Shown: positions 3,024 to 47,257 of the stretch, in pieces
Layout of the letters: the number at the start of each line of letters is the position of its first letter
Numbering within the stretch: the first letter of the stretch is position 1
Origin: Cymbomonas tetramitiformis
Taxonomy: Eukaryota; Chlorophyta; Pyramimonadophyceae; Pyramimonadales; Pyramimonadaceae
DNA length: 64,000 bases
Direction of reading: 5' to 3'
Assembly (NCBI GenBank): GCA_001247695.2
Contig: LGRX02025776.1
Coordinates: 113,727 to 177,726, forward strand
The notes under the pieces: generated by a model
Databases searched by the model: none
The model's input: only the letters and a program-made list of their open reading frames with translations
Told to the model about the DNA's origin: nothing
Program-made: the position numbers and the translations under genes

Positions 3024-3379
3024 TCACGGGGGACTAGATATACCGTACTGCCCCCTGTATGACATTCCTCGATGCATGTGACAGATGACTGCATTATTAT
3101 TCGGCTCGAGACCGCGAGTCATAGCGACAGAGACCGCGAGTCACAGCGATAGTGACTGCGAGCCACGTGTTAGAGTACTCGAGCATCACCGTAGCCGTAC
3201 TCGTACAGACTTACACAGCGCACGTAGCATAAGCTACTTAGACTCTCAGACTCTCATATGTTATATCTTTTACAGACATATTATCACCGTTTGAGCCTCA
3301 TATTTATGCGTACAGCGATAGTATTAAAACACGGATATATAGAATATTCTACCCTATATGTGTTTCATACTATCTATTA
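3024..3379 (+). repeat. Copia 5' LTR
   Basis: Direct repeat of 12254-12608. It contains short internal repeats around GACCGCGAGTCA and a promoter-like AT-rich stretch. It is preceded by the target duplication at 3019-3023. Confidence 0.92.
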
Positions 3380-3753
3380 GGTTATGTTAGACCACAACGC
3401 ACCACTGCAATCTCTGATGAAACGACAAATTTCAAATTAGCCGCTAAAAGCACTTTGAACTGGCAGTCAGCGAAAATGTTTGAAAATTGCGACTTGCTTG
3501 TACACTAACCCTCCGCAGGTCGGGCCGGTTTCAATTTTAACTCGCCGAAACCTTTTATGATTGAGAATTCTTTTACGATTGCCCTCTCGGCCTTTCATTT
3601 AACTTCAATGTTGAAACGAGCATTTACCGCGGAAGCGCTGGCCAATTTTTTGAAAATTAACAAAACTTAGAGAAAATCTTCATCTCAACCCCTAGGAGAA
3701 CGTCTTGCGCAACATCGTCGCCTTCACCGCCACCAACGGTCCGAAGGTCTACC
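3380..3753 (+). other. Copia 5' untranslated leader
   Basis: 374 bp between the 5' LTR and the Gag start. I see no canonical TGG-type primer-binding site immediately after the LTR; the sequence there begins GGTTATGTTAGACC. No gene is visible. Confidence 0.7.
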
Positions 3754-7680: not shown

Positions 7681-7758
7681 GATCTACGACCCTGCGGTTG
7701 CAGCGCCGTGGGGAGAGACCTCAGCTGCACCGACAGTGCCCCGCACTGTCCCCACGGC
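7678..7758 (+). promoter_or_regulatory. In-frame TGA with downstream hairpins: candidate readthrough element
   Basis: Gag and pol share one frame and are separated only by TGA 7678-7680, with context CAT TGA GAT. Beginning 25 nt downstream, GCCGTGGGG (7705-7713) pairs perfectly with CCCCACGGC (7750-7758). Inside it, GACAGTGC (7732-7739) pairs with GCACTGTC (7743-7750) around a CCC loop. A structure after a stop is the arrangement used for gag-pol readthrough in some retroviruses. The stop could instead be a recent mutation. Confidence 0.55.
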
Positions 7759-12608: not shown

Positions 12609-13915
12609 TACCAGCTATTAATCCAGATCCATCCACCTGGTTCTTTGATATCTTAGGCTCATATGATGCCTTCAGTCGGTTTAAAATACCCAAATGGCTT
12701 ACTGGTTACGCTGATACCCAGACCAGATTTGATGAGATAGGGTATTTCGACAACATCAATCGTATGAAACCCGACATGAGTAGATACAGAGACCCAGAGA
12801 CAGAACCGCAGGAGCCAGAGGAAGATTATTCAGAGGATCGTGCTCCACCGACCGGTATTCACAGACCCTGATGATGGTCATTTACCCCCAGCCAGTACTT
12901 GCTCCATCCGCACTTGTTCCAAAGGTGAAAATGGCTCCACCTAAGGAATGCAAGGTCGGACAGGATGCTGAGATTTGGATGGAAACAGTAGACAAATACT
13001 TTCAGTTTACCTATCCAGGTGTGCCAGATAAGGATCTTATTACAGTCTTCCTCACACTCATTCAGAACGATGACAGACACTATTTTCAGGTCGTGGCCAA
13101 AAAGCCAGATGCCACGTATGAAAATATCAGAAATACATTCCTCAGCCAGTTTGGTAATCCACACAAAAGATCAGTTGCCAAAAAGCATATTATGGCACTG
13201 AATCAGGGAAACCAGACCTTTGCAGATTATCTCCGCACGTTCACATCACTGGCTGCTTTAGCATCGGTTGATCTGGATGATGCCTTGATAAAGGACGGAT
13301 TCATCAGTAATATGGAATCAGATTTACGGAAACAGTTCCATCTTAGATTCCTTACGGAAGATGAAAGGAATAACCTGTCGTGGGCACAGACCACACAGGT
13401 TCTGCTCGATTTGAATTTTGTAGTTCATTCGAAGCAGTCAGAAACCCTTCACTATAGGGGACAGAAGGAACGGTCAGGAGGCCCAGTCAGAAAAGACAAG
13501 GACAAACGCCGTGGCAAAAAGCCTTATGACAGATCCAATCGGAATCGCAATGGCAACCAGAATCAGAATGCCAACCAGAATTCCCAGAGGAATAAAGGGA
13601 AAGGAGGAAAAGGCAAGGGAAAAGGAAAAGGAAAAGGAGCAGCAGCAAATCCTCCTCAGCCTTGTCAACGTTGTGGTCGTACCAATCACGTATTCACAAA
13701 GAATTGTTTTTCCACCAAGACACCAGAAGGGAAATCTATAAAAGGCAATCCTCCAGCTCAGAATCCATACAGAGGACAACAGCAACAGAATAATCAGGGT
13801 GCTAAAAATGAGTCTAACAAACTTGTAAAAACAGTCAACACCCTGGTTAAGGAGCTACAGAATCAGCAGAGCATCAATGCAGCAGTTCCAGCTCCAGTTC
13901 CAGCTCCAGCATCAG
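12609..13915 (+). pseudogene. gag: Gypsy A Gag (main part), cut at its 3' end by gypsy B
   Basis: This frame continues the gag interrupted at 3023. It matches gypsy B gag (18428-19700) almost codon for codon: an N-terminal region with PSTWFFDILGSYD, a capsid-like helical domain with FADYLRTFTSLAAL, a Lys/Gly/Asn-rich basic stretch, and a zinc knuckle beginning CQRCGRTNH with a spacing change before the last Cys. A frame change lies near 12860, where the product is otherwise collinear. The native 3' end is interrupted at 13915 by the gypsy B LTR, which supplies an accidental stop at 13927-13929. The role is structural (nucleocapsid) by family. Confidence 0.85.
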
Positions 13916-14551
13916 TGTCAGAGTTATGACCGATGACATATGTGCCATACATATCATACGTGTCATACCTGTCATGTCATGTCATGTCATGTCATGTCAT
14001 GTCATGTCATGTCATGTCATGTCATGTCATGTCATGTCGTGTCGTGTCGTGTCATGTCATGTCGTGTCGTGTCGTGTCGTGTCGTGTCGTGTCATGTCAT
14101 ATATTATAATGACAGACAGTCGTCAGTACGGTCGACTATGACATGTACAGTCATACCATCTGTCATTCACTCACCTTGAGTGACACCTGTCATCGAGAGG
14201 CCAGGTTGTGGCATCGAGATGACAAAGCAAGATGAAGTCTTGAAGAACCAAAGTGTTCGGAGAAAACTCATCTTCGCTTCAAGCATGTTCTGAACAAGCA
14301 TGCGAGTATCATATGGCTTATTCGTTCAGCCGATACTGATTGTTCAACCAATGCCTTGGGTTCACAACCCAATTGTGGTGGCATCTATGAGATGCGGGGC
14401 ATTGCGTAAATGAGGTAGCATTGAGCTACAACAGTCACTTCTGAAGAAGCACTGCACTCATACCCACACGTACGCTGCGTGAGCTATTAACGTTCCATAA
14501 TAGCCTCGCTATATATCATATATCATATCGCTTCCTAGCGAAGCCCAAAGA
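13916..14551 (+). repeat. Gypsy B 5' LTR
   Basis: Begins TGTCAGAGTTATGACC and ends CCCAAAGA. It matches the 3' LTR except for a much longer TGTCA array. It is preceded by ATCAG (13911-13915). Confidence 0.9.
13969..14098. repeat. (TGTCA)n / (TGTCG)n microsatellite in the 5' LTR
   Basis: About 130 bp of 5 bp repeats. The equivalent tract in the 3' LTR (about 44272-44311) is far shorter, which explains most of the LTR length difference (636 versus 565 bp). Confidence 0.95.
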
Positions 14552-19879: not shown

Positions 19880-22283
19880 TCCAGTCTAACATTACAGTTT
19901 CAGCAGATGGATACTCCCTCAGAGCACATCGCACAGATGCAGTCTCAGACAGCACAGCTGAAATCACAGAAGAAGCTGTTGTTGTACAAAGGGAAAGTAT
20001 ATGGACAGAGTACTCATATATTGGTGGATCCAGGAGCTACATCGTCTTTTATCGACAGACGGTTTGCTTCTCAGCTTGGTATTGCACCAACAGATTCCTC
20101 ATCATCATTCTCAGTGGGATTGGCTGGAGGAAGCCAACTACCCTGTACATCCTATCTTCCCAATGCTACATTCACGCTGGGTAAGTATAAGGACACAGAG
20201 GATTTCTACATCATTGACATGAAACCCTTCACCGTCATCCTGGGTCAAGATTGGTTGGAGAGAAGAAATCCACACATTGACTTCCAGTCCAAGAATATAA
20301 CGATCACGAGGAAACACTCATCAGGTTCCAGTGTTCGCACAGTTCTGTCCAGAGTTGAACAGCCTCCAGGCTCAGATGACCTTCCTGAAATGGAATTGGT
20401 CAGTGCGTGCCACCACTATGAGAAAGCACCTACGTCGTATACGATCCAGTGGGTCGGCTGAAGAAGCCGTAGCTTATCTCTTCTTTCTCTCAAAGGTCGA
20501 TGGTGAACTGGTCATGACAGCAGCAGACTCAGACACCACTATGGAAGACCCAAAGGTCACAGCAGCACGTGATCAGATGAGGGAAGACTTTTCAGATATT
20601 TTCCAGGAGGATCTTCCAGCTGGCCACAGGCCAGAACGGTTTGAAGGTGGATATCATCGCATCAACATTGAACCTGGGCATAAGCCACCATCACAGCCAG
20701 TTCGTACCATTCCAGTGCCTATGATGGAGGAGCTCAAATGACAGATCATCAAATATGTCGAACTGGGTATCCTTCGTCCGTCATCATCACCATATGGATG
20801 TCCAATCATTTTCGCTCCTAAGCCAGGGGGGAAGTGGAGGATGTGCTGTGATTATCGCGGAGCCCTTAATAACATCACTATAAAGGACACGTATCCATTG
20901 CCACCTCACGACACCCTTCTTGAACAGCTTAAAGGTGCACGATGGTTTAGCAGATTTGACTTCAATCAGTTCTTCCATCAGATTCCTATACACCTAGATG
21001 ACATTCACAAAACATCAATACGTACCAGATACGGTTCATATGAGGGGACAGTAATGCCTTTCGGGTTAACTACCGCTCCTGCAACCGCTCTTCGTGTTGG
21101 AAATCGAGCATTCTTTGACTGCATCGATCAGTTCTTGGTCATTTTCATGGATGACACCATAGTGTACAGTCCAGATTTTGACAGCCACGTGAAGCATGTT
21201 CGACAGCTCTTACAGCGCTGCAGAGATCATCAGTTCTACATCAGGCCTTCTAAGGTTGAGTTGTTCGTCAGATCCATCGATTTTATCGGACACCATATCT
21301 CTGAGGCAGGCCTATCCATCATCGAAGACAGAATCCGTGCAGTCATGGCTATCCAGCCTCCAGTGTCGCATGGTCCAACCGTTGGTAAACAGCCTCTACG
21401 CTGTATGGCTAAAGATGGCAAGTCATCTCTTCGGTCATTCTTGGGCATGGTCGGCCAGTTTAGGAGATTTATACCAAAGTTCTCCAAGATTGCCGAGCCG
21501 CTCAATCGTCTCCTTAAAGATAATGCAGAGTTTGTCTGGGAATCTGAGCAGCGGCAGGCATTTGATAATCTCAAAAGTGCCGTCTGCCATGCTCCAGTAC
21601 TACAGCTTCCAGATCAGAAACTGCCATCTATTATGGAGGTCGATGGATCAGGCACACACGTTGGTCAAGTGGTATTACAGGATCAAGGAAAAGGTATGAA
21701 GCCATGTGGCTATCACAGCGTCACTCTTTCTGATACACAGAGACGCTGGCCTATTCCTGAGATCGAGCTATTTGCCATTGTGGAGGGCTTCCGATTCTTT
21801 CGCCACATCTTGTTGGGAGCTCCTGAGACTACTGTACGCTCAGATCATCAGCCACTGGTTTATTTCCAGTCTAAATCCACACTAAGCCCCAAACAGGCGA
21901 GGTGGTTGGATGAGCTCTCCGAGTACAACTTCCGGATAGAGCACATTTCTGGCGAGAAGAATAAGGTTGCAGATGCACTCACTCGTATTTCTACACTTTT
22001 TGAACTCACTGATTGTCTGCAACATATAGACATCAGCGAGGTTCCAGTCATTGACATACAGTATCGTCTACAGATTCTACATTCATTGCTCTTATATCTG
22101 CATCATCAGCTCATCAGCTTCACGACATTATTATATCCCAGTATGATCGTGACACATTTGCACAGACCATATTATCTAAGCTGGCATCGTCGACATCATC
22201 ACAGTCAGTCAGCAATTTCGAGCTCATTCAGGGGTTGATCTATCGCAAGACCATATATGGCAGACAGCTTTACATTCTACCTA
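19880..22283 (+). pseudogene. pol: Gypsy B Pol, 5' part: protease, RT, RNase H
   Basis: Protease at about 20018-20060 with LVDPGATSSFID, where a chromovirus usually has D-S-G. RT includes DYR, DFNQFFHQI and FMDD (near 21145). RNase H includes VDGSGTHVG (near 21640) and DHQPLVYF. Compared with gypsy A it has an extra-base frameshift near 20403, a CGA to TGA change at 20739, an added codon in DYRGALNN, and another frame change near 22100. It runs into MITE 2 at 22284 in the linker before the integrase. The nucleotide match to gypsy A is very close. Confidence 0.88.
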
Positions 22284-23109: not shown

Positions 23110-25027
23110 ATGGGTACTTCTACGAGATCTCACACCGCGGCCGCACGCCGCTCACTAGTTACAATTTTCGACGATGCCGCAGCTCGACATGCGACCACGC
23201 CAGCTACTCCTACGGTTACGGCTACACCAACTGCCCAATCGGCGGGGGCACTGTTCCTCGACGCAGTCAAACGTCTAGCGAAGGAATCCTTCGACGAGCG
23301 CGCCGCCAAGCTCGTCATCAAGAAGGTGTACGACGACAAACATGGGCGCTTTGATGGTACGGAGTCGAACGTCAGCTCCGTTTTCGCCCGTCTGGTGCTG
23401 GCATTACGGGACATTTTCGTCACTGAGGAGTCCGCGTTTTCTTCTCTGTTCGACCTGGAGGATGCCACGTTGCCCGTTCGCGCCGAGGCGAACAAACTGC
23501 TGTTTTCGACACTGGAGTTCGTCATCGCTCCGGTGTCGCCCGCGGCAGACTGGATGGAGTCTTCAGCGGAGGCACACCCGTTTGATGGGAAGCGGGTGTT
23601 GCTGGAGATCGCCAGGATGCTCCTGGATTCCGGCGGGCCCTTCCAGGGCACCGCGGACCTTCTGGCCATCAAGATCAACCAGTTCGACCCGTCGCGGGCA
23701 ATCGCCGCCTTCAACGCCGCTCTCCGATCCGCCCGACGAAAGAGCACACTCGACGACATGGAGGTCAAGTCCCTCTTCATCAAGTCCCTCGACCCGGTCT
23801 TTTATGCTCCGGTTGTCAACCGCCTGCTATTGCACGACCAACGTGCGGCGGAGTCCCTTGCTACCATTCAGCAATGGACCCGTGAGTGCCACGCACAACA
23901 CGGGACGGATTCACACGTCCCGCCTGCTACACGCACGTTCTCCGCCCTCACTCTGGCTGGGCAGAGCGACGACGAGGATGACAGGACCGTCTTCAGCGAG
24001 CTCCGCGACCAGCTCTACGACATGAAGAAGGAGATCAAGGCCCTCCACAACCGTCTCGACGACACGAAGGGCTACACGCCCCGCAACGACAAGAAGAACG
24101 CCATTGGACGCGGTGGACACGGTGACGGCGTCCGCTTCGCAGCGAAGCCCCTCCCTGAGCACGGCAACTTCCCGCAGAACTTCCGTGGAAAGTCTTCGGG
24201 TAAGGTGGCTTTCCACAAGCCCACCGGTACGTTCGTCCCGTTGTGCCGGCACCCGACATGCTCCGCTACGGCGGAGAAGCATTGGCATCGGGACTGCCCG
24301 AACGGCGGGCCACGCGGACATGTTGGGGCACACGGTTTCGGCATTGCGGACAGCGAGAACGACATGCTCGCCGTGATGTTCCAGAACGCCGTGGACGAAG
24401 ACGACGCCGTCCGTTTCGACGCCGTCTGCTGCATTGCAGACGGCAAACGTGATCTCTACGACACCGCCTCCGCGTTCTCCTTCGCTGTCGCCGAGGAGCG
24501 GGTGCCCGACACCATCGACGAGTACCTGGGGTACCGCCAGCCCGCTGACACCCACCTCGGGGTTTGCGCGGTTGGTGGTGCTACGAACATCCACAACTTC
24601 AAGATTCACGGAGAAGTCCGTTCCGACACTCTGGACGCGCCACCACCGCCGGCACCGCCCTCCGCTCCGCAGTCGGTGGTGTCCGACGAGGGGATGTACC
24701 CCATCAGCGCGCTACACGCGCACGAGCCGCACGCGACATTCATGGACAAGTTCGCGTTCAACTTGGACATCGCGGGAACGGAGCCGACACTTGCAATGCA
24801 CCACATGGGCCCCGTCGCGCCCGTGGACTCCGTCTCCGTAGCGACAGACGACTCCGAGGATGAGGACGAGTGTATTCCACCACCGAGACAGCCCTTGGGA
24901 TGCGGCAGACCGCCGATGGGTTTCGGATTCTCTGCCCTCACATCTCTCGCAGTCTGCCTGTTGTTTGTTATTTGTGCAGCTGCCGCGCCTTCGCGTGATT
25001 GCTCCGCGCCAACGTCTTCAGCAACAG
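23110..25027 (+). pseudogene. TR-GAG 1 Gag-like protein, first 639 codons (split)
   Basis: ATG 23110 is the first Met of the long frame. The N-terminal 330 residues are homologous to TR-GAG 2 and look like a helical capsid-type domain (e.g. FDGKRVLLEIARMLL). A Cys/His cluster lies at about 379-396 (CRHPTC...HWHRDC), a plausible zinc-binding nucleocapsid motif. An acidic/proline region follows, then a hydrophobic segment at about 610-626 (LTSLAVCLLFVICAAA) predicted to enter a membrane. The frame is cut by the transposon at 25028; past it the same phase continues at 36073. The protein would be 784 residues if uninterrupted. Function is inferred from position and zinc motif only. Confidence 0.82.
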
Positions 25028-25059
25028 AACGACCATATCGCAAAAATGAGACACGCGGG
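25028..25059 (+). repeat. Left terminal inverted repeat of the 11 kb transposon
   Basis: 32 bp, identical to the reverse complement of 36037-36068. A further short inverted motif (GAGACACGCGGGTGTCTC) overlaps its inner end. Confidence 0.95.
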
Positions 25060-25088
25060 TGTCTCATTATATTCTCATTTTTTAAAAG

Positions 25089-25903
25089 GTTATGATATCG
25101 AGGTTTTTTTTATATGACTAGATAGCATTTGGAGAGTAGATAATGAGACGTTATTTCAAAATTTGAAATTTTAGGGTATAGCCCGAAATTTGGGGTTTCC
25201 AGGCGATTTTTCGCCCCGTTTCGGGCGGTGCTCAGGTGTCAATCGGCGGAAGTTATGATAACGAGGTTTTTTTTATATGACTAGATAGCATTTGGAGAGT
25301 AGATAATGATACGTTATTTCAAAATTTGAAATTTTAGGGTATAGCTCGAAATTTGGGGTTTCCAGGCGATTTTTCGCCCCGTTTCGGGCGGTGCTCAGGT
25401 GTCAATCGGCGGAAGTTATGATAACGAGGTTTTTTTTATATGACTAGATAGCATTTGGAGAGTAGATAATGATACGTTATTTCAAAATTTGAAATTTTAG
25501 GGTATAGCCCGAAATTTGGGGGTTCCAGGCGATTTTTCGCCCCGTTTCGGGCGGTGCTCAGGTGTCAATCGGCGGAAGTTATGATAACGAGGTTTTTTTT
25601 ATATGACTAGATAGCATTTGGAGAGTAGATAATGACACGTTATTCAAAAATTTGAAAATTTAGGGTATAGCCCGAAATTTGGGGTTTCCAGGCGATTTTT
25701 CGCCCCGTTTCGGGCGGTGCTCAGGTGTCAATCGGCGGAATTTATGATAACGAGGTTTTTTTTATATGACTAGATAGCATTTGGAGAGTAGATAATGACA
25801 CGTTATTCAAAAATTTGAAATTTTAGAGTATAGCCCGAAATTTGGGGTTTCCAGGCGATTTGTCACCGTGATTCGGGTGGTGCTCAAGCGCCATTTGTTG
25901 AAA
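25089..25903 (+). repeat. Five 163 bp subterminal direct repeats
   Basis: Copies start at 25089, 25252, 25415, 25578 and 25741, an exact 163 bp period, with the last copy diverged at its end. Each has a T8 run, the word ACTAGATAGCATTTGG, and a small palindromic GCGA-TTTTT-CGCC region. They lie only at the left end of the transposon. Subterminal repeats often bind transposase; that role here is inference. Confidence 0.95.
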
Positions 25904-26485
25904 GTGGTGATAATGACGATGTTTTCATATTGGATACGTCAAAGTCATTCCAAACAAACTGAGTCTGAAGAAACTTTTGTTCATATCTTACATACACCCC
26001 GAGAATGGGAGGCTTTAATGTTAAAAGCGGTGGCACCAACCTTAAATCTAGGGGGTGTAGGTCTGCACGAGACTGTAACTGTGTGCGTAGCACAAAAAAA
26101 CAACAAAAACCGACAAAAGGCACGAAGAATGCTACCAGATAAGACGTTGGTGCTATGAAAATATACAGTCTTTATTTGAACAGTCAAAGCACCCAGGGTT
26201 AGGGGTTTTCTTGCGGGCGCGGTATTCTTCATTGTACAGGCCGGTATATACGATGGCAGTGCAGGTGCGATCTCTCAGTTCGTTTGCTGGCTGGCTTATT
26301 AAGCATACCTACCTATTTGCTAACAGACATGTACAGGTCAAACGTTTGCACAATCACCTTGGCGCGCAGAACTTGTTCAGACACTTCCAGGTGCTGGGCG
26401 AGCTCCTTGTACCCGTTGTACTGTGCGATCGCCGACCGTTTCTTGTCCGTGTCCTCGCACTTCAAGTCTGTCCAGAGGCTTTCTC
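25904..26485. other. Transposon left interior, no gene seen
   Basis: About 580 bp between the tandem repeats and the stop codon of the minus-strand accessory gene. It probably includes that gene's 3' UTR. No protein similarity or RNA gene is visible. Confidence 0.6.
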
Positions 26486-29400
26486 CTATCTTCTCAGCGT
26501 CAGCTTTCGCCGCCGGGTGAGGTCGAACTGACCTGGCCACTGCGGACCTGGTCGTGGTGGAGAAGCGAACATCGCCGGTCGTGATGGAGGAGAGGCTCCC
26601 GGGACTTTGGAGCCCGTTGGCGTCGTTAAAGCCGGTGACCCTCCTCCTGCGCCGAGCGCTGGCGCTCCCGGGTAAAAGCCTCCTCCGCCCAGTTGGAACA
26701 TTTGGGCGAACGGGCCTGCTGCTGTTACTGCCTGTTACCGGTGACGTACCAACCGCCCCCCCCCACACCAGTTACAAGTTCCGTGTCTTTCAATCTGGAC
26801 CTCAAGCCAGAGTTCCCTCCTCCACAATAAACACAAACAACTTGAACGTAACAACTAGCTCCTACCTGCACGGCTGTCTTCAGGATCTCCCTCATCGCTG
26901 CAGCCTCCGAGGCGTGGTGATTGTTAATCTCCTTCAAGGTGTCCGCGTTCTTCTCTAGCATCCTCTGTTGGGCCAGTGCATTATTTTCGAGCATCTTCGC
27001 CTGGGCCTCGTGGGCCATTTTCGCAGTCTCGGCAGAGGTCCTTTGGAAAGACTCCTGTGCCTCCTTCAAAAGCGAGTCCCGAGAAGTAAGCGCCTTCGTG
27101 TTCTCCTCCAGCAAAGCCTGTTGCGCCTTCGTGTTCTCCTCCAGCAAGACCTGCTGCCCTGACCAGAATGAACCCAATGTTGTCTGGTGCTCCTTGGCAC
27201 GAGTCTCCTCCCGTTGCTTCCCCTCGGCCATCTGCATCTGCAGGGCTTCAGCGTGCTTCGTCGTAAGGAGCTCCACTGTCTTACGGCTTTCGTCTCGCTC
27301 GGCAGACAGGGCCGAAGCCAGCTGTTTTTCCCCACGCAGACGTTCATCCTCCACCTTCTTCTGCATCTCTTCTCGAAGGCTCGCCAGTGTCTCATCCGCC
27401 TTCTTCTTCTCGGCCTCCACTGCTTCCTTGGCCTTCTTCAGCTCATTAAGGTCCCGCTCGCTTTCTTCACGTTTCCGCTTGTCACCGACGCTCTGCAGCC
27501 TCCGCGTCTCGTCGTTCACCGACACCGCGAGCAAGGCACTCCTCAACTCCCCCTCTTTCACGTTCTGCGGAGGTCCGTCCATGCGTAACAAAACATCGGT
27601 CAGTACGTACCAAGCTGTAACAAAAAAACAGACGATTGTAACTCAAGCAAAACTCCGTACTCACCTGCTTAGCCACATGCATGGCAACTGCTTCCGGCGG
27701 AGGCTGCTTCTCCCCCCCTCGCCGTCCGACGTCGCCCATGTCTTCGTCGCTGCTGTCATCCTCTTCGGCAAGATCCATAGGTACACGCACTACCGGGGCT
27801 TTGCCCTTCCCGCCTGGGATAGGGGTCGTGGTCTTCAGGGTGGAAGGCGCCTTCCGCGAGCTTCCAGTCGGGAAATCCTCATACACGGCGGTTTGGCCCT
27901 TGTTGCCTAAGATGATCTTCCCCACTACTCGCGCAGGGGCGTTTTTATTGAATTGGCTGCCCGCCAAGCACCACTTCCTAGCCTCAAACTTCCCACCAGC
28001 CTCTTTGCCCAGCTTCTCTGCTTCCTCGATCTTCTTCCAGAACATCCCCAGGACCTTATTGAACAACCTGTAGTGCTCGTTCTCCTTCTGAATTTCAGAA
28101 GGAGTTATCTGCCGCTCTTTCCTGTCTTCCACCAGGCGCGTGACGACGCCTGTCAGAGAAGCCTTCGCGCCACTCTTCTTTGTTATTCGCACGTGCGGGT
28201 AGTCGCCGGCATACTTCTCCTTTCGCTTCATCTCCAGCTTCCGCTCATACACAGCGGGAGCCTGGAACATCGTGCAAGTAACGTCGCCCTGCTTGGGGTG
28301 ATTGCCGTTTATCGCCATGTAAGTGGCGTGCCACTGGCCAACCCATGTCAGGCAAACGAACCTGTGCGTGGGCACCAACAACCTCCTTATTCATATATCT
28401 TGACTATGTACTACAAACGAATGTGTTACAAATGAAGTTGGGTCAGTGACAGGTTCATGGTCAGGCAAACGAACCTGTGGACACCTGCAAACTCCTTGTG
28501 CATGGTGGTGGTCACCCTCATCCCTTGCACCACTTCAAACCGGAACTCCAGGTTCCGCTCGCACTTCAGAGAAGCCTTGAAGGCTGGGATGATCGACTTT
28601 CCCTCCAGTATGCCGCTCTTGTTCAGTATCTTGTTTACCTGCTGATCAGGAACAAACTTCTGATAACTGACAATCACCCCGCTGTTCCCCATTTCCTCGG
28701 AAAGACTCGCGTCGAGATATTTCGGGCTGGTCTTCGTGTCGGCTGCTATCGTGGTTTGAAGCTTATCTATAGGACCATGGCCTGCTGGCAGTGCAATCCT
28801 CGTAATACCCTCCACCTCCTGGAACTTTTCGATACAAAAAAATAGTGCCTCTTGAACAGTACCCAAAACTTCGCATTCGTGTCGGGGATGCAATATAAGG
28901 ATGGCGTCCGCGTAAGGACAGTCCTTTGGCATCTCGTACAACATGGTCTTCACCGTCGAAACGAACGCCAACTCGGGTTGCAGCCTTTTGTTCTTCAGCT
29001 TGAAGGACAGAAGAAACCCCATCGTTGCGGCTCCGGCTCCTTATCGCTTTTGGGCTCCCAGGTCGAAGGGTCGGTGGCGTCCGTGCAGGCTGCAGAACCT
29101 TTAAGCACTTCTATCATCTCCGGGGTATGAGTCTGGTTAAAATCAAATGGCTCGCTGATTTCACAGCCACTGTTCTGCAACATCAGGACCAGGTCAGCGT
29201 AGGTGTATGCCGCCTGCAACGTCCAATTTTCAATTACCTGCATGCGCTGGTCAGGCACCGCACCCCTCGTCTCGTGTTCTTCGCTGGCAAGGGGGTTGTC
29301 TTGAAGTACCATTTGTGCCAGCGCTACGGGATCCCACCCTTGATCGGTCTCCTCGTCCAACCCAGTCAACATGAAGCCCGGGAGGTCCACGACATCTGGT

Positions 29401-30899
29401 ACCTGATTCAACAACGTAGGACGACTGCCTTCGCCAGAGGACACCGCCGTCTCCCCCAAGTCCCCCTGCTCCAAGGCTTCAGACGCTGTCTTAGCCAATT
29501 TCGACACTTCAGTGGGTTGAAGGCTGTCGCGACGCTGGGATCCCAATTCAGCGACTGTTCGGAGATCGTCAACGGCTGTAGTTTCGCTTGCATGTGCGCT
29601 GCCCTGTCCGCTGTTGTCACTGCCGTCCTGCAGAAGCTCGTACTTCTTCTGCAGCAGCTTTATCCGATAAAGGCTCCTACCGTGCGGATCCCAATTATGC
29701 CCTATTGCTGATTGGATAAATGTTGGTGCAGCTGGTGTTTCTGGTTTCCCCGAGCCATACGGTAACCCATCGTGCACAGTGTCGATCTCCTCGTTCGTCA
29801 TGAGCGCCACTTCTCTGAAGGCCGACCCGGCAGGCAACTGTTGCCCCATATATACCGCAAACGTCGCGTCCTCGTAAGTCATTTCGTCGAAATACCTGTC
29901 AAGTTCCTGCCGTTCAGACTCATCCAACTTTCGACTGTGGGCATCCTGAAGCAGGCTCAACATCCGCTGCCCCAGATTGAAAGCCTCGCGACCTTCAGGC
30001 TGCACGATGTAGTGTACGTCGCTCTGCACGTCTAAAGCAACCTCCAGAAGACTGTGTCCTGACCCCGTAGAATCTAAATATCGGACCATGACCTTCTCGT
30101 TTTCCTCTATTGTGTGAGCAACAACACACAAAACATAGTTTGGGGCCTCCGTAATCTCGGCGGCGAGATTGAAAGCAACGAGTTCCCCACGGTCCGTATC
30201 GTTCCCCCGAAGCAAGCGAGGTGCTTCAGATGGTTCTTTCAGGATGCTGCAGAGGTGCGTGCGGACGAACGCAGCTCCCGGCTCCGTACCTGAGGACACG
30301 CGATGTTCCATCAAGAACACGGAGGACGCGCCAAAGTGAAAAATAGGTTTTCGAACAGTACCTGGGGATGATGGTTGAGAGGAGACAGACACGGCTGCCC
30401 TATCCCTCATATCCTCCAGAAGATCCACGCAGGTCTGGTGGGCAAATCGTTCCCAGTCCGTTTTCGTTTTCGCCTTTTGGTCCTCGCTGTCTCCGGTCCA
30501 AGGTGCGCAAACTTTTTTTAAGCGATCGAACCGTCGCATTATGTCTATGTCCACCTTCCGACGCGACGCCTCTTCCGAGTGCAAGCTGAACAGGCAACCT
30601 TTCCGAAGACACCCAAACCCTTCTTCGTCTACTAACTTAAGGGATTCAACCTCAGCGAGCTCTTGTTTTGTCCCGATGGAAAGGCCCAAATCTTCTAGCG
30701 CAGCCTTATCAACACCCGCCTTCTCCTTCCCGACGCACCGCGCTATCACCGCCGAATCCGTCTTCAACTGCGTGCCGTCATTCTTAATCTGCTGGATATC
30801 TTCCAGAAGTTTATCATCATTATGAAACACCTCCTCCAAAAGACCTATTACAATTGACGGTAGAAAAGATGACATTGCGAAAAGTTTTGTATGCTGCAC
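26486..30899 (-). CDS. Transposon accessory gene, five exons, function unknown
   Basis: Proposed exons on the minus strand: 30899-29020 (about 626 codons; start ATG 30899 or 30875); the overlapping frame ending at 28475; 28361-27665; 27564-26866; 26731-26486 with the stop. The splice phases I checked agree (HR|FVCLT at 28475/28361, AKQ|NVKEG at 27665/27564, VQ|AVTAAG at 26866/26731). The first two frames overlap and need a -1 shift near 29013-29019. The N-terminal part has a region with LCVVAHTIEENEKVMVRYLDS that only faintly recalls Ulp1-type proteases, without a convincing catalytic triad. The fourth exon is a long charged coiled coil (Glu/Lys/Gln-rich). The C-terminus is Gly/Pro/Arg-rich. 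It is transcribed away from the palindrome array shared with the DDE-like gene, so the two may be co-regulated. I do not recognise the family. Confidence 0.65.
28362..28474 (-). other. 113 nt intron flanked by a 20 bp direct duplication
   Basis: The intron starts GTTCGTTTGCC and ends CACAG on the minus strand. The 20 bp at 28347-28366 and 28460-28479 are identical, so each splice site lies inside one copy. Removal joins two frames in phase (…VHR|FVCLTW…). The duplication looks like the trace of an intron gained by insertion. Confidence 0.65.
30290..30361 (-). other. Possible 72 nt in-frame intron
   Basis: On the minus strand a segment starting GTACTG and ending CTCAG is flanked by CAG|GTAC at both ends and is a multiple of three with no stop. 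It may be a retained or optional intron, or simply coding. Weak evidence. Confidence 0.3.
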
Positions 30900-30931
30900 A
30901 ACGGGCTCTGTTTAACCCTGCGAAACTCCCA

Positions 30932-31157
30932 GCCCAAGTCTTCGAAAACTTGGGCGGTCACTATCATCGCCCCGCCCAAGTTCTCGAGAACTTGGGCGGT
31001 GACGGTCATCGCCCCGCCCAAGTTCTCGAAAACTTGGGCGGTCACAGTCATCGCCCCGCCCAAGTTCTCGAAAACTTGGGCGGTCACTGTCATCGCCCCG
31101 CCCAAGTTCTAGAAAACTTGGGCGGTCAAGGTCATAACCCCGCCCAAGTTCTAGGAA
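30932..31157. repeat. Palindrome array between the two divergent transposon genes
   Basis: Five complete 42 bp-spaced units (centres near 30986, 31028, 31070 and 31112, plus a diverged first copy) and a partial last one. The unit at 30972-30999 is a perfect 28 bp palindrome with arms CCGCCCAAGTTCTC / GAGAACTTGGGCGG; others differ by one base at the centre. Arms are conserved while spacers (TCACAGTCATCG type) vary, as expected for protein-binding sites. It lies upstream of both genes and is probably a shared promoter or operator. Confidence 0.93.
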
Positions 31158-31225
31158 ACAAGGACCCTCATATCAGGTAAGCGTTCAAATATGAAACAGC
31201 ATAACAACGGTACGCGTCTCGCAAG

Positions 31226-34200
31226 ATGAGCAGCAATAGCAGCAACTCCAGCGGCAGGAGATTGTCAAAGCAGAAGACTCTTCAAATTGCACAGTCCAAT
31301 ATTCCCGGACTATGCGAGGGCGGTTTCAGCTGTGGGTGCGATCGGAACTGCAGTTTCTTGTTCAGCACATTCAAGGGCAATATGGACCATAAGGAGCGCA
31401 TGGGCCAAACTGAGTTCAAGTCTTACATTATGGCAACTATGCGCAAAGCGATCGTGAAGCGCGAGTCTGGAGAGCGTGTTATTGGCACCCTGAAGCTTTT
31501 CGAAAAGGAGATCTGCGAGGAGGCGTTCAGAACAGTGTGGGCGCTCCCCAGGAGCTCGTACCAGCGATATAAGGCACTTATCCTTGAAGAGAAGGGGGAA
31601 CTACCGGCAACAACTGCATTCCCTGTGGCGAAGGCGGTGGTGACGACGATTTCCTACCACGAGGAGGTGTTCCGCGAGTGGGCGGATTCGAATATGTTGA
31701 AAGGAGCACCACAGAGGATGCCGGTAAGTGGTGCGCGCCAAATTCCACCCATCGATTATGGTGTGCAGTACGACTTGTATAAGTTCGACACAGAGGACCA
31801 GTGGGCAGTATGTGCTGAAACCTTCAAAATATACGTGAAAAACCTGCTCAAGGCTCAAGACATAACGGTAAGGGCGAAGGTGGAGGTGTCCGGAATCTGC
31901 ACGACATGTGACGATCTGGGTGCAGAGAGGGCTCAGCTTCTTGGACAACAGGGTCGCGAACCTGCACGCTGGGACGCCTATTCTGCTCGTTTCGCGCGAC
32001 ACGACTACATTCACAGGTTGCAACGCACGTGTTATGACCTCAGGCGGAAGGAGGGTTCTGACCCTGACGGTCGGATCGACTCCATAGCGGCGGACGGCGC
32101 GGCAAATCAGAACACGGTTGTTCCGCATGCCCCGCATCAAGTTAAGGGCATCAGCGAGAAGAAACAGCATTTCTTTAACCTACACCTGCAGCTCACGATA
32201 CTTCATGGCTCGTTGCTTCTATTTTCCGTTGGGCTCCCTTGGAGCGGGGCTAAGGGTGCAAACATGCTGCTCACGACACTGTGGAACTTGTTGCACTACA
32301 CCGCACAAGGTCGCGCGGGCAAGCGCTACTTCCGGAAGGAGCTTCATTTGCAGCTGGATGGTGGCTCAGAAAACTGGAACAAGAACACGTTCGCGTTTTG
32401 TGCGTTGTTGGTGCACTACAATATTTACAACGTGGTTGTCTTCCACCGTCTGATGGTCGCGCACACCCATAACGACTGCGACGGTTGGTTTGGACTCATC
32501 AAGATGTTCATATTTGGGAAAGACGCGCGCAAATCTGGAGTGTGGCTGTTGACGCTGGAATCGTGGATTGCCTGGTTACGAAGCTGGCCGGTGAAGAAGT
32601 TCACCAAAATCACGGACGTACAAGGCCAACAGTTGGACTTCAAGGCTTGGCTGGAGCCGCACATAAACCCAAAGTTTGAAGGCTATTCTGGGAAAGTCAG
32701 GCGTACACACCTGATGCACTTCGAGAAGGACGTGGATGGTGTTACACGGCTGAAGTACAAGTTTGGAGAACAATACGCAAACCACATGCCTGACGGAGTG
32801 GATGAGGATCTCCGTAAGGGCCTGGAGGTAATGAAAACTTACCCAGCTTTCGACAGCAGCCCCACGTTAGAAGGGGTGAAGCCGCTAGACCCGAAGGAAG
32901 AGAGGGAAACTCGCACTGCTTTCAGTCGCATGTGCGACTACATCCACTACCGTATTCCAAGTGACACGCTGGACACGTTGCTCGGGTACTTTCCCTTGCC
33001 CAAGACCGCCGAGGACTACGATGTCTGGGCTGGACCGACGCCGACCCCACAGGCTCCTGTGGATTTGAAGGAGCTTTACGAGAACGCCTGGCACAAGAAG
33101 CCAGTGCAGGAGGAGGTGCCAGAACGGACGATGCCCGAACAGTTCGAAGTGTTATCCGATGGTCGCAACGTGTTAAGCAAGGACCTTCCGCGGAAACCTC
33201 CACAAGAGATCGTGCGCAAGTGCGTGGAGAAAGCGAGGGACGTCGAGTCCGTCGATTTTTGGTTCGTCCCGTTGGTCGGTTGCGAGCACCTCGATTTCAT
33301 TGTTAGGTCTTGCAAGTATTATGCCTACCTGAGTCTTAGCTGTATGTCTTACGCGTCGGCTGCCATTGCAGGTACACGGTGGCCGAGTGTAAAGCAGCGT
33401 TGCACCACCTGGGAGTTGAACTTCCTGAACGCCCACTCAAGGAGCCGTTGGCGAAGGCCTTATTTGAAGCGACGGATGTCGCCCGAAAGGCCCACCACGA
33501 ACAACTCAGAGTCCTTCGAAAAAAAAGCCGAGCGACGACAGGTGAGGAAACCGGGGAGGATGCGTCGCCGGGTACGGAGCAGGCCTTGCCTGCAAGAACT
33601 TCCGAAGCCGGCGGAGCTGCGCGGGCGGCGCCATCACTCGAGGCTGTAACAGCCACTACACAGGCAAGACGAGAAGGAGCTGCTGCGCGAGGCCCGCAAA
33701 CCAACGAAGCTATGCCTACTCGACCACAGGCACCGGCAGCACGAGGGCCAGGCGCAGGTGGCCGAGGATGCCCTGCTCCTGCAGCGCCACAGGGAGATCA
33801 AGCACGAGCTCCAAGCGACAAGCGTGCACGCAGTTCGCCATTGGCAAAGGCGTCCCCAGGGAGCAAGTCTCCACCCGGGAAGTCTCGACAAGCGCGGGGT
33901 CGTGAAAAGGGACGAGTGCTATTCCGAGCGGCCTCTGTGATCGGTCCGACAGGCGCCCTTATAACGGACAGCTTCGCTCCTGACGACGATTGCTTTTTCG
34001 AGGATGCAAATCAGATTGCGGAGCAGGTGGAGAACGCGCATCGCCCGGAGGCGGCCACTGGACAGTTCGCAGGCGTCTCGATGGACGAGGACGACGAGGA
34101 CGACGAGGACGACGAGGACGACTCGGACGACCCGGACGACGACATACCGTTGGCCTACCGTAACCTTCCTACGGACTACACCATCGACATGCTGGCGAAG

Positions 34201-34629
34201 AGTGCGGGCAAAAGTTTCGCAGTTACGGTGGCCGCGGGCAACGACGGCTGCAGCTTTACTATCCGCATGCCTGGGAACAACGCCGTGTCCATGCCCATGC
34301 ATTTCGTGGAGGTCTTGGAGGTGGATCTGATCACGAACAGAGTGAAGTGGGGGTTTTGGCTTCCATGTGCGCCTCTGCTTATGCCGAGAACGAGGAGAAC
34401 AAGCAAAACCTTCTCTGACTTGAACAGCTTGTTCACGGAAAACGCCTTCCGGAGAGCCGCTCCGAAAGTGACCGTAGGTTGGTACGACTTCGATGCGAGC
34501 GAGATCCTGACTTGCTGGGACGAACCTCCTGGCAAACCTGCTGTCGGCGGAGTTCCAGGAGGACCTGAAAAGGCAGAACTTCTGAAGGTGGCCAGGGAAA
34601 ACTTGGCCTCCGAGGCGTTGGACAGGTGA
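31226..34629 (+). CDS. DDE-like (RNase H-fold) protein, candidate transposase
   Basis: Exons 31226-33306 and 33372-34629, joined in phase (V-R-Y-T-V) across a 65 nt GT-AG intron, give about 1,112 residues. The N-terminus has a Cys cluster (CEGGFSCGCDRNC, ~30-43) and CTTC (~224), likely metal-binding. The core has SIAADGA (Asp ~289), LQLDGGSEN (Asp ~377) and AHTHNDCDGWFG (His/Asp ~412-419). This matches the layout of a widespread uncharacterised eukaryotic family with an HTHxDxD motif (DUF7869 in recent Pfam, from memory), which I read as an RNase H-type nuclease fold. The C-terminal 400 residues hold low-complexity Ala/Pro/Arg stretches, an acidic DED/DDE run (nt 34084-34143) and a small folded-looking end. 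It is the only nuclease-like gene in the element, hence the transposase call. Confidence 0.78.
33307..33371 (+). other. 65 nt intron in the DDE-like gene
   Basis: Begins GTCTTGCAAG and ends CCATTGCAG. Reading through it leads to a different frame and soon to low-quality sequence, whereas splicing joins two long frames in phase 2. AGGT occurs at both borders. Confidence 0.75.
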
Positions 34630-34766
34630 AGGTAAGCAACACAGCCTCATTCATTCCTCGTGGCACGCACACTAGATTACAATGGCAGCACGGCGTGAAA
34701 CTTATTGTTTTTCATACATGTAAATATACGGTTTATTTGTGTACAGTCACGTGACATAAGTGTTAG

Positions 34767-35249
34767 CTACCAAGCATACGTCTCCTCATTGCACGCGCTA
34801 GCATCAAATATGCGCGCCAGGGTGCAGGTTCTTAACATACGCCCGCAAACTGCGCATCTCCTATCATCTTCTTGCAGCAGATCGCTTTCCAGCTCTGTCA
34901 GGGCACCGTGCGTTGTTTCGCTGTAGCGGTTTCTATTTCGCCAGGCCCGCCACTCCAAATCTGAGTATCGGTGGTAGATCCACCCGCCCTCATACCAGTA
35001 CACGAGATGCCTCACACCGAACCTTTCGCTGGATCTACGGCCGTGGACGTACATCGGCCAAAAACTCCACCAGTGATAGGTCCTGAGATTAACTGCATGT
35101 TGCCCGAAGTCCTCCCAGTCTTCGTCTGCTTGTTCCCGCGCTTGCTGCCACAAGCGGAGAATTAAAGGGTCTTCAGGAACCCATTGGGCTTGTTGTAACT
35201 GGCAGTCGCGAAACGTAAAAGTATCGAAAGGCCATATCCAATACTGCAA
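34767..35249 (-). CDS. Small transposon protein with a C-terminal CxxC motif (160 aa)
   Basis: A single-exon frame, convergent to the DDE-like gene. It is rich in Trp, Tyr and Arg (WWSFWPMYVHGRR, VYWYEGGWIYH). It has CAVCGRMLRTC near residues 132-142, a possible zinc-binding hairpin. The composition is not that of a random frame, but I recognise no family. It could be a DNA-binding accessory factor; that is a guess. Confidence 0.45.
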   Translation of the reverse strand: MQYWIWPFDTFTFRDCQLQQAQWVPEDPLILRLWQQAREQADEDWEDFGQHAVNLRTYHWWSFWPMYVHGRRSSERFGVRHLVYWYEGGWIYHRYSDLEWRAWRNRNRYSETTHGALTELESDLLQEDDRRCAVCGRMLRTCTLARIFDASACNEETYAW

Positions 35250-36036
35250 TATTGGCCATACTGGTGTAGGTAGTCTAAGGTGCGGGTTGTGGTTCTATGT
35301 CACGAACGCAGGTGTGTGCAAACGACCTCCGGTTACGACTCCTCCAACATATACCCTAAAACCCTGAACCTTGGACGCCCCGATATATCCATGTGCAGCA
35401 CACCTGTAGGAACACCTGCCGCGGGATATTTTGCCTCTGACGTATTTTAATGTTTCCCGCGAAATAATACAGTTAACCGGTCTTCTTAGCTGCCGAGAAT
35501 CGTGCTGGAATAGCCTGTTCAGGGCAAATTTACCCGCTGAATGCCCATGTTGGGTCACATGAAGCCTGAGGGAGCATCACCCCTGGTTGGTTTCACTCCC
35601 GAACAACTTTTCCAGCACAATAGCTTTTGAAAATATCTCCTTTGCTGCTCACTTTCGCCCGATGAGAAGAATTTTAGTACGTGACCCTCCAAACACCCTA
35701 AAATGGGCCATAAATCTGCTGGATCTCTCCCATGTAAGCAAATAGTTGCATTTTCGGAAATGTCAAAATATTACATATTCTAATAGTGCAAAAATCTAAC
35801 ATTTCGTTCACAAACATAAGGCAAAATCATAACTTTCCACACCTTACACGATACTTCCACCTTTCCCGTTTTCTTGCCGCCCGCGTGACTCGCGTGGCTA
35901 CTTTGAAGAGTCAAAAACCAGATTTTTCGAAATTCCTTCAAGGACTATTCAAATTAACCCTAATATTTGTCATTCAGAACCCCAAAAACCAATTTGGCAG
36001 ACAATTTAATGCTTTCTCATTTTTTTCTCATTTACG
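35250..36036. other. Transposon right subterminal region, no gene seen
   Basis: About 790 bp leading to the right TIR. It becomes AT-rich near the end. It lacks the 163 bp repeats of the left side. An 87-residue minus frame at 35295-35558 is not convincing. Confidence 0.6.
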
Positions 36037-36068
36037 CCCGCGTGTCTCATTTTTGCGATATGGTCGTT
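36037..36068 (-). repeat. Right terminal inverted repeat of the 11 kb transposon
   Basis: 32 bp, exact reverse complement of 25028-25059, followed by the target duplication ACAG at 36069-36072. Confidence 0.95.
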
Positions 36069-36072
36069 ACAG

Positions 36073-40900: not shown

Positions 40901-41368
40901 GATTGCTCCGCGCCAACATCTTCGGCAACAGGGCGCATCGGCGACGAGGTCGGTGGTGCTGGTGAGCTGACGCCCACAGCCATCCCGCCGGATCTCTACT
41001 GGCAGCCGGAGGGCTGGTACCACAGCTGGTACCGTGCTACGTACGGGTACGGGTGGACGTGGCTCCCAGGCCCCCCGCAGCCACCTGAGGCGGCTCCGAT
41101 TGTTACTGCGCCGCCCTCGCCAGGTGGTGCTCCGCCATCGCCGGGCTACGAGCCACCCGCCTGGGGCGGTGGAGACGGGGATGAATTTTCTTCCTCAATT
41201 CGGCACAGGACCGAGCCGGTTGCACCCGGTATGACTGCCTGCGACGACATCGGCGCGTCTTCAATTCTCTCAATTTGCTCTACGCATGATTTGACAAACA
41301 GTGGTACCAGCTCTCCTGGGCGCTGTAGCGGTGGCACCGGCTCTCCCGGGCACTTTCAAAGTGGCTAG
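37936..41368 (+). pseudogene. TR-GAG 2 Gag-like protein, split and frameshifted
   Basis: ATG 37936 starts a frame homologous to TR-GAG 1. It is interrupted at 38392 by the 1.08 kb element and resumes in phase at 39476. A one-base shift near 40315 moves the rest into another frame that ends at 41368. Features in order: a helical capsid-like region, a Cys/His cluster (CQHSTC...HWHRDC, about nt 40137-40190), an acidic/proline region, a hydrophobic segment LTSLAICLMFIICATAA (about nt 40840-40890), and a Pro/Trp-rich tail identical in kind to TR-GAG 1. Native length would be close to 800 residues. Confidence 0.82.
38393..39471. mobile_element. 1,079 bp TIR element, non-autonomous, TGT...ACA ends
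   Basis: TGTCCACTACCCGGT at the left is the inverted match of ACCGGGTAGTGGACA at the right, flanked by TCTG (38389-38392 and 39472-39475). Removing it restores the TR-GAG 2 frame. Just inside the ends and near 39211 are several copies of GATGTACCCAAG in both orientations. No protein is encoded. A TGT/ACA terminus with a 4 bp duplication fits Ginger-type or similar superfamilies, but no transposase is here to test that. Confidence 0.88.
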
Positions 41369-44767: not shown

Positions 44768-47257
44768 ATCAGCTCCAGCTCCTCGGGGAAACTCTCCGGG
44801 TACTGCACAAGTACCAGTGATGAGGGCACCCCGAGAATAAATCAGCCTGAAAATGCCACTGAAGCAAGTGGCCGGGTTGAGAGTATCTCAGAAGAAGTCC
44901 TTTCCAGTATGAGTGTATGCCACTACAGTTCCAGCAGATGGATACTCCCTCAGAACACATCGCACAGATGCGGTCTCAGACAGCACAGCTGAAATCACAG
45001 AAGAAGTTGTTGTTGTACAAAGGGAAAGTATATGGACAGAGTACTCACATTTTGGTAGATCCAGGAGCTACATCGTCATTTATCGACAAACAGTTCGCTT
45101 CTCAGCTTGGTATATCACCAACAGACTCATCATCATTCTCAGTGGGATTGGCTGGAGGAAGCCAATTACCCTGTACATCCTATCTTCCCAATGCTACATT
45201 CACGCTGGGTAAGTATAAGGATACAGAAGATTTCTACATCATTGACATGAAACCCTTCACAGTCATCCTGGGACAGGATTGGTTGGAAAGAAGAAATCCA
45301 CACATTGACTTCCAGTCCAAGAATATGACGATCACCAGGAAACACTCATCAGGTTCCAGTGTTCGTACAGTTCTGTCCAGAGTTGAACAGACTCCAGGTT
45401 CAGATGACCTTCCTGAAATGGAATTGGTCAGTGCCACCACTATGAGAAAGCACCTACGACGTATACGATCCAGTGGGTCGGCTGAAGAAGCCGTAGCTTA
45501 TCTCTTTTTTCTCTCAGAGGTCGATGGTGAACTGGTCATGACAGCAACAGACTCAGACACCACTATGGAAGACCCAAAGGTCACAGCAGCACGTGATCTA
45601 ATGAGGGAAGACTTTTCAGATATTTTCCAGGAGGATCTTCCAGCTGGCCATAGGCCAGAACGGTTTGAAGGTGGATATCATCGCATCAACATTGAACCTG
45701 GGCATAAGCCACCATCACAGCCAGTTCGTACCATTCCAGTGCCTATGATGGAGGAGCTCAAACGACACATCATCAAATATGTCGAACTGGGTATCCTTCG
45801 TCCGTCATCATCACCATATGGATGTCCAATCATTTTCGCTCCTAAGCCAGGGGGGAAGTGGAGGATGTGCTGTGATTATCGAGCCCTTAATAACATCACT
45901 ATAAAGGACACGTATCCATTGCCACCTCACGATACCCTTCTTGAACAGCTTAAAGGTGCACGATGGTTTAGCAGATTTGACTTCAATCAGTTCTTCCATC
46001 AGATTCCTATACACCCAGATGACATTCACAAAACAGCGATACGTACCAGATACGGTTCATATGAGGGGACAGTGATGCCTTTCGGGTTAACTAACGCTCC
46101 TGCAACCGCTCTACGTGTTGGAAATCGAGCATTCTTTGACTTCATCGATCAGTTCTTGGTCATTTTCATGGATGACACCATAGTGTACAGTCCAGATTTT
46201 GACAGCCACGTGAAGCATGTTCGACAGTTCTTACAGCGCTGCAGAGATCATCAGTTCTACATCAGGCCTTCTAAGGTTGAGTTGTTCGTCAGATCCATCG
46301 ATTTTATCGGACACCATATCTCTGAGGCAGGCCTATCCATCATCGAAGACAGAATCCGTGCAGTCATGGCTATCCAGCCTCCAGTGTCGTATGGTCCAAC
46401 CGTTGGTAAACAGCCTCTACGTCGTATGGCTAAAGATGGCAAGTCATCTCTTCGGTCATTCTTGGGCATGGTCGGCCAGTTTAGGAGATTTATACCAAAG
46501 TTCTCCAAGATTGCCGAGCCGCTCAATCGTCTCCTTAAAGATAATGCAGAGTTTGTCTGGGAATCTGAGCAGCAGCAGGCATTTGATAATCTCAAAAGTG
46601 CCATCTGCCATGCTCCAGTACTACAGCTTCCAGATCAGAAACTGCCATCTATTATGGAGGTCGATGGATCAGGCACACACGTTGGTCAAGTGGTATTACA
46701 GGATCAAGGAAAAGGTATGAAGCCATGTGGCTATCACAACGTCACTCTTTCTGATACACAGAGACGCTGGCCTATTCCTGAGATCGAGCTATTTGCCATT
46801 GTGGAGGGCTTCCGATTCTTTCGCCACATCTTGCTGGGAGCTCTTGAAACTATTGTTCGCTCAGATCATCAGCCACTGGTTTATTTCCAGTCCAAATCCA
46901 CACTAAGCCCCAAACAGGCGAGGTGGTTGGATGAGCTCTCCGAGTACAACTTCCGAATAGAGCACATTTTTGGCGAGAAGAATAAGGTTGCAGATGCACT
47001 CACCCGTATTGGGATTGATCTATCGCAAGACCATTTTTGGCAGACAGCTTTACATTCCACCTACTCCCAAGGTGCCTACAGATGACGGTGAGATCACACA
47101 GCTTCGCCACATTCTACTTCATGAGTGCCACTCAGCCACTATTTCTGGTCATGTAGGCAAAAATCGCATGCTTCATCTATTGCGTAGCCGATATTATTGG
47201 CCAAAAATGACGAAGGCAGCCATCCAGTACATTCGGGAGTGCCCCGTGTGTCAACGA
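44768..47257 (+). pseudogene. pol: Gypsy A Pol: protease, RT, RNase H, start of integrase
   Basis: After the gag-protease linker, a continuous frame from 44917 to about 47010 carries protease (VDPGATSSFID near 45055), RT (CDYRALNN, DFNQFFHQI, FMDD near 46166) and RNase H (VDGSGTHVG near 46660, DHQPLVYF). Compared with gypsy B about 235 bp are deleted near 47010, shifting the frame. The integrase zinc region (His, His, Cys, Cys between 47121 and 47255) follows in another frame. A CAG to TAG change at about 47258 stops it. RT and RNase H are otherwise intact. Confidence 0.9.

Follow-up and report, generated by a model that had tools for sequence, protein, structure and literature searches.

A complete 11-kb DNA transposon of the green alga Cymbomonas tetramitiformis encodes a DUF7869 protein, a putative DDD transposase

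The unit described here occupies positions 25028-36068 of the window, by which we mean the whole stretch of 64,000 nucleotides of Cymbomonas tetramitiformis contig LGRX02025776.1 that was analyzed, and its 11,041 bp constitute a complete DNA transposon with terminal inverted repeats (TIRs) and a target site duplication (TSD). The left TIR (32 bp; plus strand, 25028-25059; AACGACCATATCGCAAAAATGAGACACGCGGG) and the right TIR (minus strand, 36037-36068) are identical at all 32 positions, with a longer stretch matching at 34 of 35 bp; by chance, 0.00 such repeats would be expected in the window. Inspection of the sequence revealed the tetranucleotide ACAG immediately outside the left TIR (25024-25027) and its copy outside the right one (36069-36072). 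The target was a long open frame: the host frame running from 23110 onward is interrupted by the transposon, and a paralogue that is 83.7% identical over 1,073 bp has the site uninterrupted, with the unoccupied ACAG at 40928-40931 embedded in the sequence CAACAGGGCG. Comparison within the window thus bears out the first-pass annotation of this DNA with respect to the perfect 32-bp TIRs, the ACAG duplication, the empty paralogous site, and the interruption of the host frame. Just inside the left TIR lies a subterminal tandem repeat (25089-25886, plus strand) of period 163, with 4.9 copies and 97% matches.

The surrounding window is rich in retroelements, including Gypsy-type pol frames with RVT_1 and RNase H domains at 20841-22238 and 44917-47085, the latter also with a protease, as well as a gag frame at 12871-13929. 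A Copia-type polyprotein (7708-12069, plus strand) combines RVT_2, rve, and Pol_BBD, and between Pol_BBD and rve, at aa 217-297, shows a sub-threshold match to the Pfam Dam N6-adenine methyltransferase family (24.9 bits against a cut-off of 28.1).

On the plus strand, the transposon carries a gene with two exons (31226-33315 and 33372-34629) separated by a putative 56-bp GT..AG intron (33316-33371). The first-pass annotation was right in predicting a single spliced protein here, although its length is 1,115 aa rather than ~1,112 aa. Exon 1, the putative transposase exon, encodes an N-terminal Cys-containing segment, the invariant residues D290, D378, H413, H415, and D419, and the Pfam domain DUF7869 (PF25273) at aa 313-512, detected with 66 bits against a gathering cut-off of 26 (E 4.5e-18). 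Exon 2 encodes a linker with an acidic tract and the C-terminal part, in which no Pfam family scored above the cut-off; a weak TFIIA match of this frame fell below it and was rejected. The closest protein, P0001, is CYMTET_19716 of C. tetramitiformis, 91% identical in the alignment and, by BLASTP, 72% identical over 98% of the query. Neither phmmer nor profile searches found a relative of the DUF7869 protein in the PDB, and no prokaryotic relatives were found in genome_contigs.

A divergent spliced gene occupies the minus strand at 26313-30899, with frames at 30899-28995, 29022-28426, 28381-27482, 27591-26725, and 26768-26313. No Pfam family matched it above the cut-off, and its weak matches (Pfam hits below the cut-off and PDB hits with E 0.27 or worse) were rejected. 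One GT..AG intron, inferred at 28362-28474 on the minus strand with boundaries placed by inspection, lies between near-perfect 20-bp direct duplications that contain the AG/GT junctions, as if the intron had arisen by tandem duplication. A small ORF with a CxxC motif (34767-35249, minus strand) likewise has no Pfam match above the cut-off, its weak hits being rejected. Between the two divergent genes, at 30928-31159, lies a feature absent from the first-pass description, a tandem array of a palindrome with period 42 and 5.5 copies, the 28-bp core being CCGCCCAAGTTCTCGAGAACTTGGGCGG. Our tentative view is that the two genes most likely share this array as a promoter or operator, to which a protein encoded by the element would bind, and that the minus-strand protein would most likely be an accessory DNA-binding or regulatory factor.

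Other copies sharing the TIR and the 4-bp TSD, which the first-pass annotation had proposed to look for, are abundant. An exact search with the first 25 bp of the TIR across the genome (851.7 Mb, 25,745 contigs) yielded 701 ends, 347 forward and 354 reverse, and none with the reversed-pattern control. Among the first 100 listed places, six contigs have a minus end after a plus end, which makes seven end pairs together with the window, and perfect 4-bp TSDs, all different, flank six of the seven: ACAG in the window, ACCT on C386, GTAG on C418, CCGT on C1024, CTCA on C2228, and ACAT on C2266. These matches are not due to chance because the expectation is ~1 in 256 per pair. The seventh pair (C1209) was rejected as a single element, its ends being 38.9 kb apart and differing in their flanks, which is what two separate insertions would give.

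The copy on C2228 is full length (11,236 bp) and 99.3% identical to the window element, with 10,610 matches and 78 mismatches; its palindrome array exceeds that of the window by 528 bp, and its left tandem repeat falls short by 326 bp. This copy has an open DUF7869 frame, with four differences from the window in exon 1, at codon positions 1, 2, 2, and 2. The first-pass annotation had named a lack of the ORFs at conserved positions in other copies as an outcome that would speak against it; in this copy, they are present at the positions corresponding to those in the window. The divergent minus-strand gene that it had proposed is real as well: on C2228, an open frame of 826 codons spans the first two window frames, which are interrupted in the window copy. 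Three further copies carry internal deletions yet retain both ends and their own TSDs (C386, 1,366 bp; C1024, 3,706 bp; C2266, 4,472 bp). In ordinary DNA transposons, the machinery acts in trans on the element ends, and these deletion derivatives with TSDs of their own suggest that the same is the case here.

The genome contains a second, distant DUF7869 family. Scanning with PF25273 produced 2,557 first-look candidates, and all 150 candidates that were scored lie above the cut-off. The 30 best-placed loci represent this second family (family 2), in that, of the 29 loci other than L020, 27 match it at 98.5-99.6% along most of their length, and L021 and L025 do so along a part. The family-2 domain is 23% identical to that of the window element over 188 residues (E 6e-9). 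The family-2 gene starts just downstream of a palindrome tandem array with a ~48-bp period and the core GGGCGACTCATCCGCGGATGAGTCGCCC (L051; L044, positions 3218-3577), which is unrelated in sequence to the window array and within which several contigs end. Cys-containing ORFs occur in the right arm of both families (34767-35249 in the window; frames on C1609, loci L055/L050, in family 2), the two family-2 ORFs looking alike by eye.

The family-2 termini also start with AAC, as in the window element. A right boundary, AACAGACTATTGGGG, is common to three copies, and its terminal 20-mer has 248 matches in the genome (control, 0); in the 30 right-end loci examined, the 14-bp flanks are unrelated, two loci resemble the others over no more than their first 61-65 bp, and no nearby second end was found. 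The left end, AACAGACTATTGGGAATA, was recognized in C3441; L077 contains it too, and L085 contains it with a single mismatch. The corresponding 25-mer has 595 matches (control, 0). Among the first 100 places of each, both ends occur on three contigs, with one correctly oriented pair, on C3584, which spans 11,406 bp and has the TSD ATAC on both sides, that is, a 4-bp TSD in one of one such pair. C2064 and C3701 have both ends, which do not form pairs, and were rejected; at L077, on C2064, a left end at 50 and a right end at 1501 face apart, ~1.45 kb from each other, representing either two nearby insertions or an assembly effect. Rejected as complete copies were also C3441, a rearranged copy with a genuine left end, for which no right end was found in the part that was read, and L025, a short candidate in which the right end is present and the left end was not found.

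The association of these ends with the DUF7869 gene was assessed with a 30-mer from the family-2 motif, which has 270 matches in the genome (control, 0). The first 100 listed places fall on 99 contigs, 27 of which also hold a listed right end; by eye, the motif points to that end in all 28 pairings among the listed places, at a distance of 5.1-7.3 kb in 24 and of 10.1-17.2 kb in the rest. Motif and left end co-occur on 8 listed contigs, in the expected orientation and 2.8-16 kb apart on 6, and arranged otherwise on C987 and C1888. Thus, the right end is well tied to the DUF7869 gene, and the left end loosely so. C3584 contains no exact copy of the 30-mer, in a listing that extends past that contig, and is therefore probably a deletion derivative or a variant. 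A lack of shared TIRs around relatives was another outcome that the first-pass annotation had named as speaking against it; the distant family 2 is linked to terminal repeats and includes one pair with a 4-bp TSD, on C3584, a putative deletion derivative or variant.

DUF7869 is widespread among eukaryotes, and its Pfam title (PF25273) states no function. The first protein search and its repetition with a profile recovered the same 7 DUF7869 proteins, whereas a search with the family-2 domain added 72 proteins, all marked PF25273, from Cymbomonas, corals, sea urchin, hemichordates, oyster, and many contigs. For alignment, 33 of these 79 proteins, picked for spread and length, were combined with the window and family-2 proteins (35 sequences; 46 proteins left out). 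Eight columns are invariant in all 35: D290, Q376, D378, H413, T414, H415, D419, and F422. The HTHxDxD motif named in the first-pass annotation thus holds in part: H-T-H and the last D are invariant, as H-T-H-x-x-x-D, and the first of its acidic positions varies. In this alignment, D290, D378, and D419 form a DDD triad with the spacing D-87-D-40-D; by eye, one hydrophobic stretch ends at D290 and another at D378, and D419 comes after the HTH motif, a layout that would be expected of an RNase H-like nuclease. In a midpoint-rooted FastTree phylogeny of 204 core columns, with the topology read without branch supports, the window protein groups with P0002, P0004, P0005, and P0006 on a long branch, apart from all others including family 2. 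The oyster protein P0063 shows, at aa 156-203 upstream of DUF7869, a sub-threshold match to the RFX DNA-binding domain (25.1 bits against a cut-off of 27), possibly a winged-helix DNA-binding part. The term DUF7869 was absent from the literature searched, subscription journals and other family names being outside its scope, and no paper on a DUF7869 element was among the matches listed.

Overall, the unit is very probably an autonomous-type, recently active DNA transposon moved by its DUF7869 protein, which would be a DDD transposase. What is observed consists of the boundaries, the 4-bp TSDs of independent copies, the insertion of gene-poor deletion derivatives, the invariant triad, and a second DUF7869 family linked to similar termini. 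A DDD transposase domain is the most likely identity of DUF7869 because two deeply diverged families in one genome are linked to terminal repeats and 4-bp TSDs, and the anatomy of the elements strongly supports this identity. The suggestion in the first-pass annotation that the domain is transposase-derived gains support from the shared TIRs and TSDs, the full-length copy, and the linkage of the distant family 2 to ends. From the sequences we infer, in addition, an RNase H fold, catalysis, and a cut-and-paste route for this protein. In the mechanism that we propose, the DUF7869 protein would bind the TIRs, cut the element out by means of D290, D378, and D419, and rejoin the DNA, inserting the element at a 4-bp stagger and with hardly any preference for the target sequence. 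A palindrome array next to the DUF7869 gene is an architecture common to two distant families, which suggests that the array matters to the element; most simply, it would be a binding site, within a shared promoter, for an element-encoded regulator.

If DUF7869 is a transposase domain, a domain that is widespread in eukaryotes gains the function that its Pfam title does not state, with testable catalytic residues, and many uncharacterized gene models become transposons or transposase-derived genes. With its near-identical copies, the window element is a candidate for an active transposon of a green alga. In the published assembly of C. tetramitiformis, 43.6% is listed as unclassified repeats (PMC10675990), which this reading of DUF7869, if true, would help to sort.

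The alternative that survives best challenges the novelty of the element, not the transposase reading: the unit may belong to the known Sola superfamily, most likely as a Sola1-like element, with DUF7869 being the Pfam name of a Sola-type core, a view that could just as well prove right as wrong. Sola motifs were reportedly set out by Bao et al. in 2009 and by Yuan and Wessler in 2011. Sola elements are described as having a DDD transposase, a 4-bp TSD, TIRs of 11-1124 bp, and sizes of mostly 2-9 kb, sometimes >15 kb (PMC10741241), a description that the element fits in its triad, TSD, TIRs, and size. It also resembles a 21.5-kb Sola1 family of Ectocarpus in which transposase and accessory gene are encoded on different strands (PMC12477816). 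However, the likeness to Sola is one of published description, and the Ectocarpus accessory protein is described as containing ParB-like and methyltransferase domains (PMC12477816), whereas the minus-strand protein has no Pfam match above the cut-off. We do not assign the element to Sola. The first-pass view that no superfamily can be named for the cargo nevertheless calls for qualification: a DDD core combined with a 4-bp TSD is the description given for Sola (PMC10741241). A bolder proposal, which we advance tentatively and with some doubt, is that these elements represent a superfamily of eukaryotic transposases that is separate from Sola and not yet described, with DUF7869 as its catalytic core, 4-bp TSDs, termini starting with AAC, and an internal palindrome array controlling the transposase gene; the coral, sea urchin, hemichordate, and oyster genes would then be its active, dead, or domesticated descendants.

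It is improbable that the minus-strand gene encodes the transposase, with DUF7869 acting as an accessory nuclease or a passenger. That gene is long and spliced, and the full-length copy on C2228 has it too, but its product shows no known domain, the invariant D-D-D triad sits in the DUF7869 protein, and the termini to which DUF7869 is linked differ between the two deeply diverged families. Less credible still is an integrated virus or virus-derived element (a Polinton-like virus or mirusvirus), considering that, although C. tetramitiformis is reported to contain numerous endogenous viral elements, among them complete Polinton-like genomes 15 to 25 kb in size (PMC10675990), none of the eight frames scanned has a viral Pfam family above the cut-off, the one match to a phage regulator being sub-threshold (Phage_CP76 in a minus-strand frame, E 0.035, 14.4 bits against a cut-off of 26), and no relatives were found in viral_contigs, by protein or TIR pattern, or in phages, two collections that may leave out records near the source genome.

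With the unit regarded as a transposon moved by a putative DUF7869 transposase, its relation to known systems can be considered. Within Pfam, the plus-strand protein is a DUF7869 member above the curated cut-off, found here inside a TIR/TSD unit. Its third motif presumably resembles that of piggyBac. Further likeness to piggyBac lies in the DDD motif, which in piggyBac is described within an RNase H-like fold (PMC9499001), and in the 4-bp target; however, piggyBac inserts at TTAA (PMC7351741), whereas none of the seven TSDs here (six of the window family and the family-2 ATAC) is TTAA, and with no piggyBac Pfam match this assignment was rejected. The KDZ group (Kyakuja, Dileera, and Zisupton) similarly comprises large transposons, from algae and fungi, that carry accessory genes (PMC12477816, PMC12730594), but the Zisupton TSD is given as 8 bp (PMC12730594) against 4 bp here, and no KDZ Pfam match was obtained. 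Rejected as well were Ginger, described by a Gypsy-like integrase (rve) core (PMC10741241), since none of the eight frames gave an rve match with an E of 1 or below, and Dada, which has 6-7 bp TSDs and targets small RNA genes (PMC3706591), in contrast to the 4-bp TSD and the long open frame targeted here. Among the superfamilies considered, and compared by description, Sola fits best, its 4-bp TSD being shared by both the window element and the family-2 pair and its DDD signature being matched, at the sequence level, by the DUF7869 triad (PMC10741241).
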